A DNA stretch of 64,000 nucleotides from Acidobacteriota bacterium (lineage in GTDB: Bacteria > Acidobacteriota > Terriglobia > Acidiferrales > UBA7541): positions 22,889 to 86,888 of the forward strand of contig QHYE01000034.1 of the NCBI GenBank assembly GCA_003224055.1. Reading direction: 5' to 3'. Positions 698-49,820 of this stretch are shown piece after piece (the first letter of the stretch is position 1; the number at the start of each line of letters is the position of its first letter). Made by a program: the position numbers and the translations under genes. Below the pieces are notes generated by a model. That model did not search any database, had not been told where the DNA came from, and saw nothing but the letters and a program-made list of their open reading frames with translations.

Positions 698-3600
698 CTA
701 CTTGAAGCGCTTCTTTATCTTTATGTCGATGCCAAACGTGCCGTTCTGGTCGCGCAATCCCACAATCGAAACGTTCCGGTCCACGTTGTACTCCACTTGA
801 ATCACCTGCTGCTGTGTCGAGCTCACATTCGAAACATAAGTGATGGTGAGGTTCCGGGCGATCTGTTGCTCCACGGTGATGCGTGCCGCGGCGTTCTGCT
901 CCGACCCCGTCGAGCCCACTCCCGCAAGGCCCGGATCAACGCGGAAACGCGTAATCCCAAACAAGCGCTCGAGCCGCCCGCCCAATTGGCTGGAGATTGC
1001 TTCCGAGAGAATCGCTGAAGCCCCGGCGGTTCCGCTTTGCGATGTGCCACCGCTGCGCGCTGTGGACTCGGAGCTGGTTTGGCCCAGCGCCAGTAGCGTG
1101 ATGATGTCGTTCGCGGGAAGCGGCGGGTCGGAGCGATACGCCAGCGTCAGCTTGCTGGCCGGCCCATTGAAATTCAGCGTGATTTCGTATTGTTGGATCG
1201 TCGTTGTCGCTTCCACGTTCAAAACTGGATCGAGCCGGAAAGGGTTTGCGAAGTTCAAGTCGCCGCGCGAAACGCGGTAACGATTTCCCGCGAAATACAA
1301 CTCACCGGAAAGAATGTGGATGTGTCCCAACAGAATCGGATGCTCCCAGGTCCCGCGCACTCGCAGATTCGCTTCGGCCTGCAGCACTGCACCAGGCCAT
1401 TCCATCCGCGCATCCGGCGCAGATACGGCTTCAACGTCGAATTGCAAATTGCGCAGAAACGGTGAACCGGTAGACGGTCCCGTGATGCCTTCCTTAGCGG
1501 AGACCAGCATTCCAGCAACTTCCAGGCCTTGAGTAAGGGTCACGCGCTCGATCATCACGCGCCCGGAAAGAACGCCTCCCATTGGCGTGCCTGTCAGCCG
1601 CAATGAACCCCCTAAGAGCCAACTCATGCCCACTGGATACCGGATGCGCACCCGATCGGAGCGCAGGCTGACGTCATAGCGCAGCGGACTCTCTGCGTAA
1701 TTTACACTGCCCGTAAGGTGCAGCGTGCCGCCACCAGCTTCCGCGCTTACATCCTCGAAATACAACCGCGTCGCATCAAATACCAAATCGCCCTTGATGG
1801 TGCTCAGTCCCGTGGGAAAATCCACCGCACGGGCGGATGCATTTTCGATGTGAACACGGCCCGTGATGCGTGGGCGATCCAGCGTGCCTTCAACGGACGC
1901 ATTGATCTGCGCTGGACCGCGCGCATCAAGGCCCGGCACAAATCCGCTGATGAGCCGCAGATCCAATCCACCGTTGAGGCGTAACGCCACGGTTCGGCGT
2001 CCCGCAAACAAGATCGAACCTGAGATTTGCAGATTGGTGTCTGCACCTCGCAGCGTCGCCGGATCGATCTCCAGGCTTTCTTTTGCCGATCGAAAGTGGA
2101 CCGGCCCCACGTTTTCCAGCCGGACGGTTACGTACGTCAGCACCAGGCGCGAGAAACTCGCATCCACCACGATGCTTTCCGGCTGTTTCAATGAACCCGT
2201 CAGCAAAATGTCACCATCCGCATCCGCATGGCCTCCGGATTTTCCCAGGTGCAAAGCGGTTTGCAGGAAAGGGTCCAGGTTGATGTTCTTGATCGAGATC
2301 TTTCCGTTCAACGGATAGGGATTAGCAAGCCCGACGGTGCCCCCACCGGATATTTCTCCCGTCGTCATGGCCGAACCAAGTTCGAGATGAGCAGTGTGCC
2401 CGTCTGACGTTAGGCCGCCGTCGAAACTCCCGATGACCTCTTGACCAACTCGGAGATCCACGACCCTGAAGGTCCCCTCGCCAAGAGGAGCCGTCACTGG
2501 ACCACTGGCTTTCAGCTTGAAACTGACTTGCCCCCCTACCGGGAGACGCGCCGACTGAAGTTTCTCGAAATTCTCGAGCGGCAGCGCCGCGCCGACAAGT
2601 TCGGCGGAGATGGTTTTGTCCGCATAGCGATAGCTTACTGAACCGGTAATGATTCCTGCGCCGCGTCCTCTTTCTTTCCCAGGGGGGAAGAAGCGCAACT
2701 CCGCATTGGCAATACGCGCTTCCTCTCGCGAAACGCCCAGTTGTCCGCGCAAGCGATTAAATGCGAGCCCGTAAACATTTCCCTCCGCGAGGTCAAACAG
2801 CCCCGCGGCACTGGGCTCTTCGCGTGTGCCGCGCCCATGAAATTGACCCGTCAACAGGCCCCTTACCGGGTACGACCAGCCGGCGAGCTGTTCGATGCCT
2901 TCGACAGGGACTTTTTCGAAATTCACATCCGCCGACCACTCACTCTTCGGTAGAAAGTTCCAGTCGGTCAGGGAAAGAGTTCCTTCGACATCCGTTCCCA
3001 TCTCGCCCCGGCGGGCATGCCCGTGCGCCAGCGATAACTGGGTGGGAGAATAGGTGAGGTCCCCGTCGAGGGAATCCAGGAACACTCCGTCGTAGCGCAC
3101 GCGCTCGCCACGCACGTGCCCCTGAAACGTCGGCCCGCCGGAAGGTCCAAGGATCTTGCCATCCCAACGGACGCTGCCCGAGATCGGTCTCGCCGCCTTA
3201 GGAGAACCCGGCTTGGCGCCGGCGAGCGCATCAATGAAATCTTTGTACGTTTCCAGTGCGCCTGCTTCGAATTTCAGATTGATTGCGGAATTGCGTGGTG
3301 CCAATACTCCATCGATGTTTCCGCGCGAGGAAGGAGTCTCGAATTCGCCTGATGCGATAGTAAGGAGATTCGGGTCGTAACGGTAACGGAATTTCCAGGC
3401 AGCGTTTACCGATTGATGGCGGCTCGCGGGTTGCTCCGGTGCCTCCCACACGGTCGTCACGCCAATTTCAAAATGCCGGAACGGGCCGCTCCAGGTTTCG
3501 ACCGTGTCCGCCGTGATCAGCGCATCCCAGTGCAGTTCGTCGATCGGGAAGCCGCGGTGCTCGATGGCCGGCAAAACTCCGGCCAGCCTGACGTTTTGGA

Positions 3601-19041: not shown

Positions 19042-19100
19042 GAAAAAATCAACATTCGATAGTTCAAAGTTGAAAGTAAAAAGTGACTGGTGATTCGTGA

Positions 19101-19244
19101 CCCCGACGGGGTCGGGGCAGGTTGGTGACTGGAAAGGGAGGAAACCCTTCCGGCGGGGCCGGAATCTGCGATCAACTTTCTTCGGTCGCGCAGAAAAAGC
19201 ATCCTTCGCCGGATAGAAGTGAACTCCTCTCCGGCAGGGCCGGA
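19101..19244. repeat. Cluster of three short hairpins with 3-nt GGG/AGG loops
   Basis: CCCCGAC-GGG-GTCGGGG (19101-19117), TTCCGGC-GGG-GCCGGAA (19148-19164), TCCGGC-AGG-GCCGGA (19230-19244). Confidence 0.65.
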
Positions 19245-19299
19245 ATGTACCCTCGGCTACCGATGGTTCCAGAGAATGGGAATCCTGATTCGCGTTTCT

Positions 19300-19403
19300 A
19301 GTTAAAAATAGTATCCCCCACCCCCATGTTTTTCATAAGTGTTGATTCTAAAGAGGGTTGAAGTTGTTTGTTTTGATAGACTTTTGTAAGTGTTGATTCT
19401 AAA
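19300..19403 (-). repeat. Dispersed repeat copy A (core 19328-19403) with C-rich left edge (G-rich on minus strand)
   Basis: 76-bp core is 74/76 identical to the reverse complement of 47935-48010; contains TAAGTGTTGATTCTAAA twice, 51 bp apart. Confidence 0.9.
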
Positions 19404-19952
19404 TGGTTTAGAGAGATAGAGGGAGAGTTGAATAGTGGGTAGGGGGGTACACCTTCGTCGCGGTGAAAAGAGTGCCGAAGTGATTGATAAACAAAGGGTT
19501 GTGAGAGGCCCGTCACGGAAGAGAGTGCGCAAACTTCTGAAAGGAAAAGACTTGCATGAGCGGACGGCAGAAATGGAAGTGGCGCGAGGAGAGAAGGCCG
19601 TGATTTGCGAGTGGCAAACACGCGGGAGAATAGCACAAAAGTACACTGCGTGTCAATTACTTTCTTGTTAGCATTCGAATGGACCCGCAAGACGCTGAAA
19701 TTGCTGGCGGTTAAAGCCGAAGTCAAATTTCCAACCTTGCGTAACCAACTCCGAAGGTGGACCGCCGGCACAAAATTGTGCCAGGAGGGTGGTGAGTAGA
19801 AACTTGCATGGGAAGAGGCTACCCGTCCTTTGGAACAGTAACCCGCAAGCGAACGAGGGACCGGAGTTCTATTGCGTCGCCTCGGAATGGACCGATAGCT
19901 TTAACGGTATAGCTCCAAATTTCGCCGCGAGAGCGAAAAGAGAGGGGACCTC

Positions 19953-22875: not shown

Positions 22876-23277
22876 GTGAAGAAGCTCTATATCGGGAATC
22901 TTCCGTTTTCCGCGACGGAAGAGCAGCTCAACGAGTGGTTCTCGCAGGTTGGCGTCACACCCTCGGGCGTCAACCTAATCCGCGACCGATTCACGGGCCA
23001 GTCACGTGGTTTTGCCTTCGTCGAGGTTACGAACGACGAAGATGCAGACCGCGCGATCAATTCCCTGAATGGTCAGAATTTTGGCGGGCGAAACCTCGTT
23101 GTGAATGAAGCGCGTCCCCAGGCGGAGCGCGGCGGCGGTGGTGGCGGCGGACGCGGTGGTGGGTACGGCGGCGGACGCGGCGGCCATGGTGGTGGCGGCG
23201 GTGGACGCGGCGGCGGTGGTGGCGGACGCGGCGGTGATCGCGGCGGAGATCGCGGCGACCGCGGTAACCGCTGGTAA
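22876..23277 (+). CDS. RRM RNA-binding protein with Gly/Arg-rich (RGG) tail
   Basis: KKLYIGNLPFSATEEQL (RNP2), RGFAFVEV (RNP1), then GGGGRGGGYGGGRGG... tail. Confidence 0.93.
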   Translation: MKKLYIGNLPFSATEEQLNEWFSQVGVTPSGVNLIRDRFTGQSRGFAFVEVTNDEDADRAINSLNGQNFGGRNLVVNEARPQAERGGGGGGGRGGGYGGGRGGHGGGGGGRGGGGGGRGGDRGGDRGDRGNRW

Positions 23278-37680: not shown

Positions 37681-38475
37681 ATGGCCTCAGCCGCTGGACT
37701 CACGGAAGTCGTGCTTTACGACACGCTGGTGAACTACCTGGTTTCAATGGCCCGTACCGTCGAAGGCGCGATGAATCGCGCGCTGGACGCCATTGTCAGC
37801 CTGGAAAGCCCCCGAACCGCGGCTCTGCCCGGCGAGGTATTTCTTCTCGAGCCGCGCATCAACGAAATGGAAATCGTTATCGATGAGCACGCCATCCGGC
37901 TTCTCCGCCGCGGCTCGTACTCGGATGACGAAATGCGCCTGATCGTCGCTGCTCTGAAAATTACCAACGACCTGGAACGCATCGGCGACCTCGCCGTGAA
38001 TCTCGCCCAAGGCGTCATCTCTCTCCGCGAAATGACGGGTGCCCAAGTCCCGCAGGAACTCGCCCCTATGGCCTCCGCCGTACGCGCTATGGTCAGCAAG
38101 AGCCTTGGCGCTCTTATTTTTCGCAACGTCGAAATGGCCACGCAGGTTCTAGAAAGCGACGATGTGGTCGATCAATACCGCGACCGCATTTTCGAGCAGC
38201 TCCTTCAGGGCATGACCCGGGAGCCTGCGCTCGTGAGTCCGGGCCTGCAGTTCATTCTGGCCACGCGCCATCTCGAGCGCATCGCCGACCACGCCACCAA
38301 CATCGCCGAAGACATCATCTTCTGGGTCCGTGGCCTCGATGTCCGCCACGGCCGCGGCCTCGCCGTGCTCTCAGAGCCGTCCTCGCTTCCCGCAACGGAC
38401 GACTCGAACGTTACGCAGAATTCACATGCTCTTCATTCGGATGTGACTCCAGTTGGAAATACTGAGCAAGCTTGA
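37681..38475 (+). CDS. phoU: PhoU family protein (copy 1)
   Basis: LERIGDLAVNLAQGV and LERIADHATNIAEDIIFWVRG. Confidence 0.9.
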   Translation: MASAAGLTEVVLYDTLVNYLVSMARTVEGAMNRALDAIVSLESPRTAALPGEVFLLEPRINEMEIVIDEHAIRLLRRGSYSDDEMRLIVAALKITNDLERIGDLAVNLAQGVISLREMTGAQVPQELAPMASAVRAMVSKSLGALIFRNVEMATQVLESDDVVDQYRDRIFEQLLQGMTREPALVSPGLQFILATRHLERIADHATNIAEDIIFWVRGLDVRHGRGLAVLSEPSSLPATDDSNVTQNSHALHSDVTPVGNTEQA

Positions 38476-44477: not shown

Positions 44478-45143
44478 ATGGAACGCCATTTCGAAAAAGA
44501 CATCAACGAGCTGAAAGAGCGGCTCCTCTGGATGGGCAGCCTCGCCGAGCGCGCCGTTCACCAGGCCGTTCACGCTGTCCTGGAATCCGATGAGCCGCTC
44601 GCCAGGCGCGTCCTCGAGGAAGAAGACGCCATCAACGAGCTCCAGCTGGAAATCGACGATCGCGTCGTTCAGCTTCTTGCCTTGCACCAGCTCATGGCCG
44701 TGGATCTCCGTTTTGCGCTGGCTGTTTCGCGCATCAACATCGACCTCGAGCGCATCGGCGATCAGGCCGTGAATATCGCCCAGGGGGCCCTCCGCATCCT
44801 TCGCCACCCGCGCGTGAAGCCCTACGTCGACCTGCCGCGCATGAGCGAGCTCGCCGAAGAAATGGTCCGCGACGCCCTCAACGCCGTCGTTCGCCGCGAC
44901 GTCGACCTCGCGCAAAAAGTCCTCGCCACCGACGACCGCGTGGACCACTACCGCGACCAGATTTTCCGTGAATTGTTGACCTACATGATGGGCGATTCCA
45001 GCGTGGTCTTCCCCGCGTTCGAATTGATTCTCGTCGCCAAAAACCTCGAGCGCATCGGCGACCACGCCACCAACATCGCCGAGGACGTCATCTACCTCGT
45101 CCAGGGCCAGGACGTCCGCCACCCCACCGTCGACCGCCGGTAG
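44478..45143 (+). CDS. phoU: PhoU family protein (copy 2)
   Basis: MERHFEKDINELKERLLWMGSLAERAVHQAV; LERIGDHATNIAEDVIYLVQG. Confidence 0.93.
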   Translation: MERHFEKDINELKERLLWMGSLAERAVHQAVHAVLESDEPLARRVLEEEDAINELQLEIDDRVVQLLALHQLMAVDLRFALAVSRINIDLERIGDQAVNIAQGALRILRHPRVKPYVDLPRMSELAEEMVRDALNAVVRRDVDLAQKVLATDDRVDHYRDQIFRELLTYMMGDSSVVFPAFELILVAKNLERIGDHATNIAEDVIYLVQGQDVRHPTVDRR

Positions 45144-47084: not shown

Positions 47085-47265
47085 CGGACGCTCACATCCG
47101 GGCCGTTAGAACTGCCGGCAATCCAAAGTATATCAAGGGCTTGCGGAAAGCAGACGCGCGCCTCCGTGAGGCGGGATCGCGTGAACACTGTCCCAAACAA
47201 GTCTTGCCGCACACGCCTGGGAATGCTCGTTCCAATCTTTAGCTCTACAATCCCATAGATTTCTC

Positions 47266-47295
47266 TTGACAGTACCGTAACTACTCTGGTATATT
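47266..47295 (+). promoter_or_regulatory. Sigma70-type promoter for 47370 CDS
   Basis: TTGACA-N18-TATATT. Confidence 0.55.
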
Positions 47296-47369
47296 ATTCG
47301 AGTAAAGTAGCCCGCCTCGCCTTCCGCGAGATCCTCTTACAATCTAAATCCTTTTTTCTGGAGACTTCC

Positions 47370-47900
47370 ATGTCCACTAATCGCTCCGTTGACCGCTTTG
47401 CGGTCACACATAAAAACGACCGTTCCTGCTTGTGTGCCTTCACCTTTGCCGACGGCCGTCGCTGCCGTACTCCGCGGCTCACTGGCCACCCGCGCCTCTG
47501 CTGCTTCCATGCCAAAAGGGAAGCGCAATCCCTCGCCGCCCAGCAGGTCGGCCGTGACGTATCCTCTTTCCTCTCCGGCAGTTATCTCTCCGCCTGCGAT
47601 CTCAGCTCCGCCTTGGCCCGCGTCTTCTCCGCCGTCGCCGAAGGCCATGTCAAACCCAAAACCGCCTCCACCCTCGCCTATCTCGGCCAAACCTTGATTC
47701 AATCCATCCAGGTCGCCGAGCACGAATACATCAACGCCTTCGGCACCGATTCCTGGCGTGACATGGTGGCCTTCTCCTTCGCTCCTCCCGGCACTCAAGA
47801 GGACGAGGATCCCCAACCAGCCCCAGCGCCGCACACCCCCTTGCCTCCGACGAGCACCGAATTCGTTCAGCGTATACTGGCCGGTCGCAACTTGTCCTGA
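47370..47900 (+). CDS. Hypothetical 176-aa protein with N-terminal C-x9-C-x11-C-x2-H putative zinc knuckle and helical domain
   Basis: CAFTFADGRRCRTPRLTGHPRLCCFHAKREAQ; own promoter; 34 bp upstream of repeat copy B. Confidence 0.7.
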   Translation: MSTNRSVDRFAVTHKNDRSCLCAFTFADGRRCRTPRLTGHPRLCCFHAKREAQSLAAQQVGRDVSSFLSGSYLSACDLSSALARVFSAVAEGHVKPKTASTLAYLGQTLIQSIQVAEHEYINAFGTDSWRDMVAFSFAPPGTQEDEDPQPAPAPHTPLPPTSTEFVQRILAGRNLS

Positions 47901-47934
47901 GCGTAACTGTCACCAGCCACGAGCCACTAACTCT

Positions 47935-48041
47935 TTTAGAATGAACACTTACAAAAGTCTATCAAAACAAACAACTTTAACCCTCTTTAGAATCAACACT
48001 TATGAAAAACAGGGGGGAGGGGGTGGGTGTTATGGTTAACT
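47935..48041 (+). repeat. Dispersed repeat copy B (core 47935-48010) with G-rich right edge
   Basis: Reverse complement of copy A, 74/76 in core; GGGGGGAGGGGGTGGG edge. Confidence 0.9.
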
Positions 48042-48080: not shown

Positions 48081-49820
48081 TCAAGGGCTCGCGGACAGGA
48101 GACGCTGGCCCCCGGCGTTGAACAACGCGAGAAGCGCCAGCAACCCGGCCACGGAAACGAAGATCCCCAGGATGCGGTCCGGCGTTCGCACAAATTTCAC
48201 GGCGATGTGTTGCGTCCCCGCAGGCAGCCGCAGCATCATCTGGCCGCTCGTCTCTGCGTGCTGCGGTGTTGCCACCTTCCCGTTCACTTCCACGCGCCAC
48301 GCCGGATAGTCCAGCAGCCGCAGCGCCACCCGCACCGGCTTCTGCGACGATACTTGCAGCTCCCGTTCTTCTGCGCTCCATCGCAGAACGTGTACCTCGG
48401 CCCGTGGTGCTGCTCCTCCCGATTCCTCCTCCGGCAGAATCGCAACCCGCGGCGCTTTTTCTGGCAAATTGGTGTGGTCGTCATCCATCGGATCGTATTC
48501 ATCCGTGCCTTCAAAACCCTGGTCATTCGCGATGGCTTCCCGCAAAGCCGGAATTTCGTCCGAATCCCACCACGTCTGTTGTACCAGGAACGCACCCGTT
48601 GCCGCGGAAACGACAATCACCGCCGCGCCCAGGATCCAGCCGGCACGCCGCCGCGACATCGCGGCCGCTATAAAACAGGAATACGGCACCGCCAGGATGG
48701 ACATCCATCTCCACGGAAACTGCACAAAACGCAGCTTGAACAGGTGTTCCCAGAAAACCGAACTCGGGCGAATCATCATGAAAATCGCCGCTGCCGAGAG
48801 AAACAGCAGTACGCGCCACAGTTTTCTCGCTTCCTCCGTCTCTCCGTTTTTGGCAGCGCTTCGGTGCGCCGCGATGGCCGCGATCCCCGTCATCACCATC
48901 AGCACGATCGCCACGCTCGAAGCCACCCAATTGAACACGTTGTGCTCCGGATCGTTGGTCATCGTATTGAGAAAATTGTCGGAAGGATGCAGTCCCGGCG
49001 AAAGCGCCTGCGTGATGTTCACCCAGCGCTGTTCGTAAGCCGCGGGGAAGAGATAGAAACTTGCGAGGGCAAAGCCCAGCGTTACACCGGCCATTCCGCG
49101 CCACAGCGGTCGCGATGACTTCTCCGCGAATGCGGCCCATACAAAAAAAAGTGCCACGCTGTAGCTCGCCAGCACCGCGGCAGGCGCATTGGACAGCCAC
49201 ACCGCCGCAAACACCACTGCGAATAACGCCAGCGCTCGCGGTTGGGAACGCCCGCCGACCAGCCCGCAGACTTGTAGCGCCGCCAGCAGCACCACGGGCA
49301 TCAGCGCGCACGCCAGCAATTCCGCAAAATCGCTGCGCATGTAAATAACCAGCAGCGTGTAAGGATTCGCCGCATAAGCCGCCGCTCCAAAAAGCGCCGC
49401 GCCCCGCGCCGCGAACCGCCGCGCCAGTGCATACGAACTCAGGCCCGCGATCGTCTGCACCAGCGCGATAAATATTCCCGGCACCGCATTCCACGGCGCC
49501 AAAAAGCCCAGCGCCGCACCCAGCATCCACGAAAGCGGCGGATAAAAAATAAACCGCGGCTCGCCAAATCCGTGGTTCGCCCACTCCGTCCACCTGGGAT
49601 ACGCGATCCCTTCTCTCCACTGGCCCGCCGTATCCAGCCAGGACGCTGCGTGAAATCCAAAATCATGGCCGGATGCGTTCCCCAGCCAGAAAAATGGCGC
49701 AATCACCAGCAGCGCGGTCCCGAACGATACGCCCAGCGCCACGAGCCACTCGCGGGAAGTTGTACCGCGCTTCAATCTGTTTGGAAGTTCCACCGAAGAT
49801 GTCATGCAGTGCGCATACAA
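48081..49820 (-). CDS. Polytopic membrane protein (PTPS-related/YfhO-like membrane domain)
   Basis: Multiple TM segments, GHDFGFHAASWLDTAGQWREGIAYPRWTEWANHGFGEPRFIFYPPLSWMLGA. Confidence 0.7.
   Translation of the reverse strand: MYAHCMTSSVELPNRLKRGTTSREWLVALGVSFGTALLVIAPFFWLGNASGHDFGFHAASWLDTAGQWREGIAYPRWTEWANHGFGEPRFIFYPPLSWMLGAALGFLAPWNAVPGIFIALVQTIAGLSSYALARRFAARGAALFGAAAYAANPYTLLVIYMRSDFAELLACALMPVVLLAALQVCGLVGGRSQPRALALFAVVFAAVWLSNAPAAVLASYSVALFFVWAAFAEKSSRPLWRGMAGVTLGFALASFYLFPAAYEQRWVNITQALSPGLHPSDNFLNTMTNDPEHNVFNWVASSVAIVLMVMTGIAAIAAHRSAAKNGETEEARKLWRVLLFLSAAAIFMMIRPSSVFWEHLFKLRFVQFPWRWMSILAVPYSCFIAAAMSRRRAGWILGAAVIVVSAATGAFLVQQTWWDSDEIPALREAIANDQGFEGTDEYDPMDDDHTNLPEKAPRVAILPEEESGGAAPRAEVHVLRWSAEERELQVSSQKPVRVALRLLDYPAWRVEVNGKVATPQHAETSGQMMLRLPAGTQHIAVKFVRTPDRILGIFVSVAGLLALLALFNAGGQRLLSASP

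Follow-up and report, generated by a model that had tools for sequence, protein, structure and literature searches.

A Cys/His protein gene and a dispersed family of promoter-plus-repeat units in a genus of soil acidobacteria

In the 64,000-nucleotide stretch of DNA that we have analysed (the window), which is part of the draft acidobacterial genome G000 (4.53 Mb, 136 contigs), the gene of a 176-residue Cys/His protein is preceded by a promoter and followed by a repeat, and the three together form a unit at positions 47266-48040 of the forward strand; its components are listed in Table 1, along with those of a second unit that lacks an open reading frame (ORF). The repeat of the coding unit, copy B, contains two direct 17-bp copies of TTTAGAATSAACACTTA (47936-47952 and 47987-48003), followed by a run of G residues and then by GTTATGGTTAAC (48029-48040), while copy A, the second repeat copy of the window, is 93% matched (19315-19411, minus strand). 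The ORF, the promoter, the Cys/His motif and the downstream repeat that an earlier, sequence-only reading had proposed are all real, and its distance of 34 bp between the stop codon and the repeat is correct when counted from TTTTAG, becoming 26 bp if the repeat is taken to start at CTAAC (47927). The 5' boundary of the unit is placed at the point where similarity ends: similarity to a unit of genome G027 starts at about 47259, and the L001/L043 alignment begins 668 bp before the repeat. The leader hairpin CCTCGCCTTCCGCGAG is a decayed version of the terminator-like hairpin that paralogs have in their leaders. On both sides, the module is flanked by a 25-bp stretch that copies the 3' end of yfhO (47133-47157 and 48081-48105; 22/25 identical); it has been weighed as a target-site duplication, but a gene remnant is as likely, because tandem yfhO copies occur in other species. 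Elsewhere in the window, two diverged copies of a gene segment that is presumably PhoU-like (37970-38349 and 44743-45122) share stretches that are about 78-83% identical, and GGN-type tandem repeats form a coding-like, glycine-rich stretch at 23129-23272.

Table 1. Features of the coding unit and of the ORF-less unit of the window.
Feature	Position	Strand	Basis or remark
Repeat copy A, type 1, of the ORF-less unit	19302..19411	-	sequence comparison within the window
Promoter of the ORF-less unit, TTGACA-N18-TATTCT	19627..19656	-	preceded by conserved CATTCGAATGCTAACAAGAAAGTAA
Lineage-specific DNA around copy A	19045..19809, approximate		not present between argJ and gene2 at the orthologous site of two related species
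Sigma70-like promoter, TTGACA-N18-TATATT	47266..47295	+	sequence; -35 TTGACA at 47266-47271, spacer of 18 bp, -10 TATATT at 47290-47295; 5' boundary of the unit
Leader hairpin CCTCGCCTTCCGCGAG	47315..47331	+	sequence, and leaders of L032, L033, L018 and L025
Ribosome-binding site GGAG	47360..47363	+	putative, from sequence
Cys/His protein ORF, 176 aa	47370..47900	+	ATG at 47370, TGA at 47898-47900
Architecture of the Cys/His protein	47370..47900	+	knuckle C22-H47, helical domain, Pro-rich tail
Repeat copy B, type 1	47927..48040	+	CTAAC, box F1, AAAAGTCTATCAAAACAAACAACTTTAAC, box F3, AAAAAC, G-run, GTTATGGTTAAC
Box F1 TTTAGAATGAACACTTA, 17 bp	47936..47952	+	sequence
Box F3 TTTAGAATCAACACTTA, 17 bp	47987..48003	+	sequence
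G-run GGGGGGAGGGGGTGGG	48012..48027	+	sequence; conserved among copies

The Cys/His motif of the protein, C22-x9-C32-x11-C44-x2-H47, is common to 19 aligned homologs with a mean column identity of 28%: C32, C44 and H47 never vary, C22 is conserved at 90% or more, and the only other invariant or near-invariant residues of the alignment are A48 and A99. In the AlphaFold2 model (pLDDT 80, pTM 0.43), the knuckle is followed by long helices at residues 45-68, 75-90, 96-124 and 126-137; a fold search of the PDB with this model, which is of moderate confidence, has returned no match at E < 1, ToxN-type nucleases included. The protein has no Pfam match at E <= 10, the CsrA family included, no family of NCBIfam or PHROGs fits it, and no homolog occurs in the phage and plasmid collections; no known catalytic motif has been recognised in it. 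The protein is probably zinc-binding, and we consider it probably nucleic-acid-binding as well. The dN/dS ratio is 0.30 between the window protein and its G027 homolog and ranges from 0.18 to 0.46 across seven pairs of gene copies, and therefore the ORF is maintained by purifying selection. A search of 61 genomes has found the protein in 25, almost all belonging to the same genus, while a profile search of 396 genomes across the phylum has detected it in only 5, the window's genome among them.

The association of the gene with the repeat recurs across genomes, which is the test that the sequence-only reading had set. In 16 of 20 close homologs, from loci that were mostly fetched by protein match alone and scanned for the repeat afterwards, the repeat starts between -40 and +112 bp from the stop codon on the same strand, with the stop codon itself falling within the repeat in many of them; in a seventeenth (L047, genome G013), the 3' end of the gene and the repeat are inverted as a block. 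A recognisable repeat is missing from four of the 20 (L032, L044, L045 and L133). Linkage by chance would be expected at about 0.001 per gene, given a maximum of 60 copies spread over 4-5 Mb. The earlier idea of a cognate repeat extends to the wider family: in distant paralogs, two of which belong to another genus (G036), a related box array and G-run are located between the promoter and the start codon, so that the ORF precedes the boxes in the close subfamily and follows the G-run in the distant subfamily. A strict box pattern occurs downstream of close homologs 0.65 times per gene, compared with 0.02 in shuffled sequences (about 30-fold), and upstream of distant homologs 0.5 times per gene, compared with 0.07 (7-fold); on the opposite side of the ORF, neither subfamily has a clear excess. 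On the protein tree, where the label of a 5' array was assigned by eye, the position and type of the array change 10 times, against 20.1 in shuffles; the two arrangements cluster, while the split between type 1 and type 2 inside the close subfamily is not settled by the tree. The number of repeats per genome follows the best protein match (Spearman 0.74), with a median of 34.5 copies in genomes that have a close homolog and 4 in those that do not; these counts use a repeat model built from G000, by which divergent copies may be undercounted.

Tandem boxes paired with a small ORF, preceded by a promoter and a hairpin, are also what a type III toxin-antitoxin-like system would present, with the repeat RNA as the partner of the protein, and the boxes of the distant subfamily are indeed 5' of the ORF. 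We regard this explanation as very improbable: the predicted zinc knuckle and helices have given no PDB match at E < 1, there are dozens of orphan arrays, and the close subfamily has its boxes 3' of the ORF.

The scheme of a protein with its cognate repeat, as proposed from the window, holds as far as the linkage is concerned, but the unit exceeds it, since most repeat copies have no ORF and many of these retain the promoter. In the core unit, a sigma70-like promoter is joined to a box array and a G-run, and some copies add the Cys/His ORF. BLAST has identified 44 repeat copies in G000, and a 68-position profile 46, which is far above chance. The repeats are of two types: type 1 contains boxes F1 and F3, and type 2 contains F1, an inverted box R and F3. 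A strong sigma70-like promoter, scored with an E. coli-type matrix, precedes the repeat by no more than 350 bp in 37% of the 100 copies examined; the control regions give lower figures, with 1% for downstream DNA, 4% for the opposite strand and 6% for more distant upstream DNA. The element CATTCGAA is located upstream of the promoter in several promoter classes, a terminator-like hairpin is frequent in the leaders, and we infer that the ORF-less units are transcribed.

Several other elements adjoin the repeats. REP-like hairpins (GGTGCCCCATCCTTGC...GCAAGGGTGGGG and CCTGAGCGA...GAAGGACCTCTC) are found next to many units, either upstream of the promoter (L013, L007, L006) or after GTTAAC (L005, L007, L025). 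An insertion sequence at 1409-3412 of locus L101 (G000:C77), with ends CGGGATTGTATACTTGACACC, has been recognised by eye and is taken to be of the IS1595/ISXO2 type; an IS of this type occupies an identical site within the type-1 repeat (CTTTAACC/CTTCAACT) in L101, in L180 of G013 (near 583) and in L124 of G027 (near 1495), with an apparent 8-bp duplication at the insertion in the G000 repeat. Judging from this shared position, the IS appears to target the type-1 repeat, as some insertion sequences target REPs. In Rfam, only a tmRNA and a tRNA have been matched, as neighbours of two repeat copies; in L104 (G000:C136:25100-28100), a repeat unit immediately precedes the tmRNA gene in the same orientation. 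In the literature on acidobacterial repeats, we have found no description of this repeat.

The units are dispersed lineage by lineage, differ in presence between orthologous sites and have deletion derivatives. The repeat occurs in 32 of the 36 genomes of the genus, with a maximum of 58 copies per genome, and is absent from the 25 genomes searched outside it. Of 132 copies, 69 have their closest relative within their own genome (expected 25.7, at most 46 in 2000 shuffles), and in G000 this is true of 40 of 45 copies: the copies have been amplified within lineages. Around copy A, about 765 bp are missing between the same two genes (argJ and gene2) in G027 and G013. The yfhO locus presents the protein with the repeat in G000, G008 and G013, the repeat only in G023 and G027, a remnant in G028, and directly adjacent neighbours in G012 and G032. 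The window unit shares 72% identity with a G027 unit located elsewhere, from the promoter to GTTAAC, and none beyond; in L025/L041, an internal deletion has fused about 30 N-terminal codons to the repeat. In G014 and G033, the contigs break within near-identical gene copies that have unrelated upstream flanks; all of the genomes compared are drafts, and some are perhaps misassembled at repeats. Many copies are at shared positions in the related species G013 and G027, and therefore activity is not clearly recent everywhere.

The strongest rival to a mobile-element reading is a post-transcriptional regulator, where the protein would bind the boxes in the untranslated region (UTR) of its own mRNA and thus regulate itself, with the ORF-less units acting as sponge RNAs. 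CsrA, with its CsrB/C sponge RNAs, is a small protein that recognises repeated short boxes; the present family shares with it a small protein, short repeated boxes and ORF-less units that are apparently promoter-driven, and differs in the absence of any Pfam match and in a far higher copy number and dispersal. The units do resemble transcription units, with strong promoters, terminator-like leader hairpins and boxes in the UTR on one or the other side of the ORF. In the F1-R hairpin of type-2 repeats, a key position varies on both sides (34 T-A, 14 G-C, 9 mismatched; Fisher p 2e-6, with kinship between copies ignored), a two-sided change that fits an RNA hairpin and a palindromic protein site equally well. 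Compared with shuffles, the repeats fold with z values from -4.7 to -0.4, some being more stable, but the folding of the type-1 repeats L001 and L003 is ordinary (z -0.9 and -0.4). Furthermore, copy numbers of 40 to 58 in the genomes of several species, the lineage-specific amplification and the patchy loss are a better fit to a selfish element, and several genomes contain repeats where a close protein homolog is absent. Both readings predict that the protein binds the boxes; we regard the regulator as possible, though doubtful.

The REP-associated tyrosine transposases (RAYTs) and their REP repeats (PMC2817692, PMC3116915) are defined by a Y1 transposase domain with an HUH motif and a catalytic tyrosine, and by a gene that is located between two inverted REPs (PMC2817692). 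The sequence-only reading had pointed to a resemblance with this system, and the layout bears it out: a gene is paired with a cognate multi-copy intergenic repeat, the repeats outnumber the genes, their placement coevolves with the protein and non-coding copies are dispersed. The defining features, on the other hand, are lacking: the Cys/His protein has no Y1/HUH domain, and its Pfam scan contains no recognisable transposase domain, in agreement with what had been read from the window; the repeat is one-sided and on the same strand, instead of two inverted REPs, and the unit has its own promoter. Mobilisation by a resident Y1/RAYT gene is unsupported, with two Y1-like matches in the genome, one of them partial. 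More generally, the repeats could be mobilised by an unrelated transposase, with the Cys/His ORF as a passenger or a later recruit; a protein that lacks a catalytic motif and a degraded Y1 transposase located about 0.4 kb from one repeat copy would fit such an arrangement, but the linkage to the ORF is systematic while Y1-like matches are scarce, and the position of the boxes tracks the protein tree, which makes it improbable in our judgement.

The ORF-less copies also recall MITEs and other non-autonomous IS derivatives, in that internal-deletion copies keep the promoter and the 3' repeat and lose the ORF. They differ from these in their parent ORF, which does not encode any known transposase. 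No target-site duplication, terminal inverted repeat or defined 5' terminus of the unit has been seen, the comparison covering one empty site with approximate boundaries. A likeness to integron gene cassettes, where a promoter is followed by an exchangeable ORF that ends in an attC-like site, is found in the order of the ORF and the partly palindromic repeat, and an exchanged interior has been seen once: the orthologous units L181 (G013:C51) and L125 (G027:C9) have kept the leader and the 3' part, while the interior differs, being about 0.1 kb of non-coding DNA in the former and, in the latter, about 0.6 kb that includes an unrelated ORF (at least 163 aa). Nevertheless, no match to the integron integrase model TIGR02249 in the 36 genomes reaches the curated cut-off (the weak, sub-threshold matches are seen in 14 of 14 control genomes too), the units are single and dispersed, and nearly all of their ORFs belong to the same Cys/His family; the integron reading has been dropped as excluded for practical purposes.

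Our best reading, in which we place about even confidence, is that the unit of the window is one of the coding members of a family of dispersed elements that is restricted to the genus and apparently transcribed, similar in layout to RAYT/REP but with an unrelated and probably nucleic-acid-binding protein. The Cys/His protein would fold around one zinc ion, recognise the boxes, either in DNA or in the transcript, and favour the propagation of the units that carry them; coding units would be the autonomous members of the family and ORF-less units the non-autonomous ones, by analogy with RAYT/REP. Because the protein has no known catalytic motif, the copying chemistry would probably be provided by the host or by other enzymes. 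In a more tentative form, which we consider rather unlikely as it stands, the family may represent a new bacterial system of repeat propagation, where a transcribed unit of promoter, boxes and G-run would spread by the action, or in the company, of a small zinc-knuckle protein that lacks a transposase chemistry and instead marks box-bearing nucleic acid for host enzymes. Selfish or regulatory, the promoter-plus-repeat system looks undescribed.

RAYT/REP is the best-known case of a bacterial dispersed intergenic repeat with a dedicated protein, and a second, unrelated pair of protein and repeat would show that such partnerships have arisen more than once. In a single genus of soil acidobacteria, the unit family explains a considerable number of intergenic repeats, with dozens of protein-less promoter-plus-repeat copies per genome throughout the genus; about 30 species are available for comparing coding, deletion-derived and solo copies, and a protein family that lacks a database match is offered a testable function.
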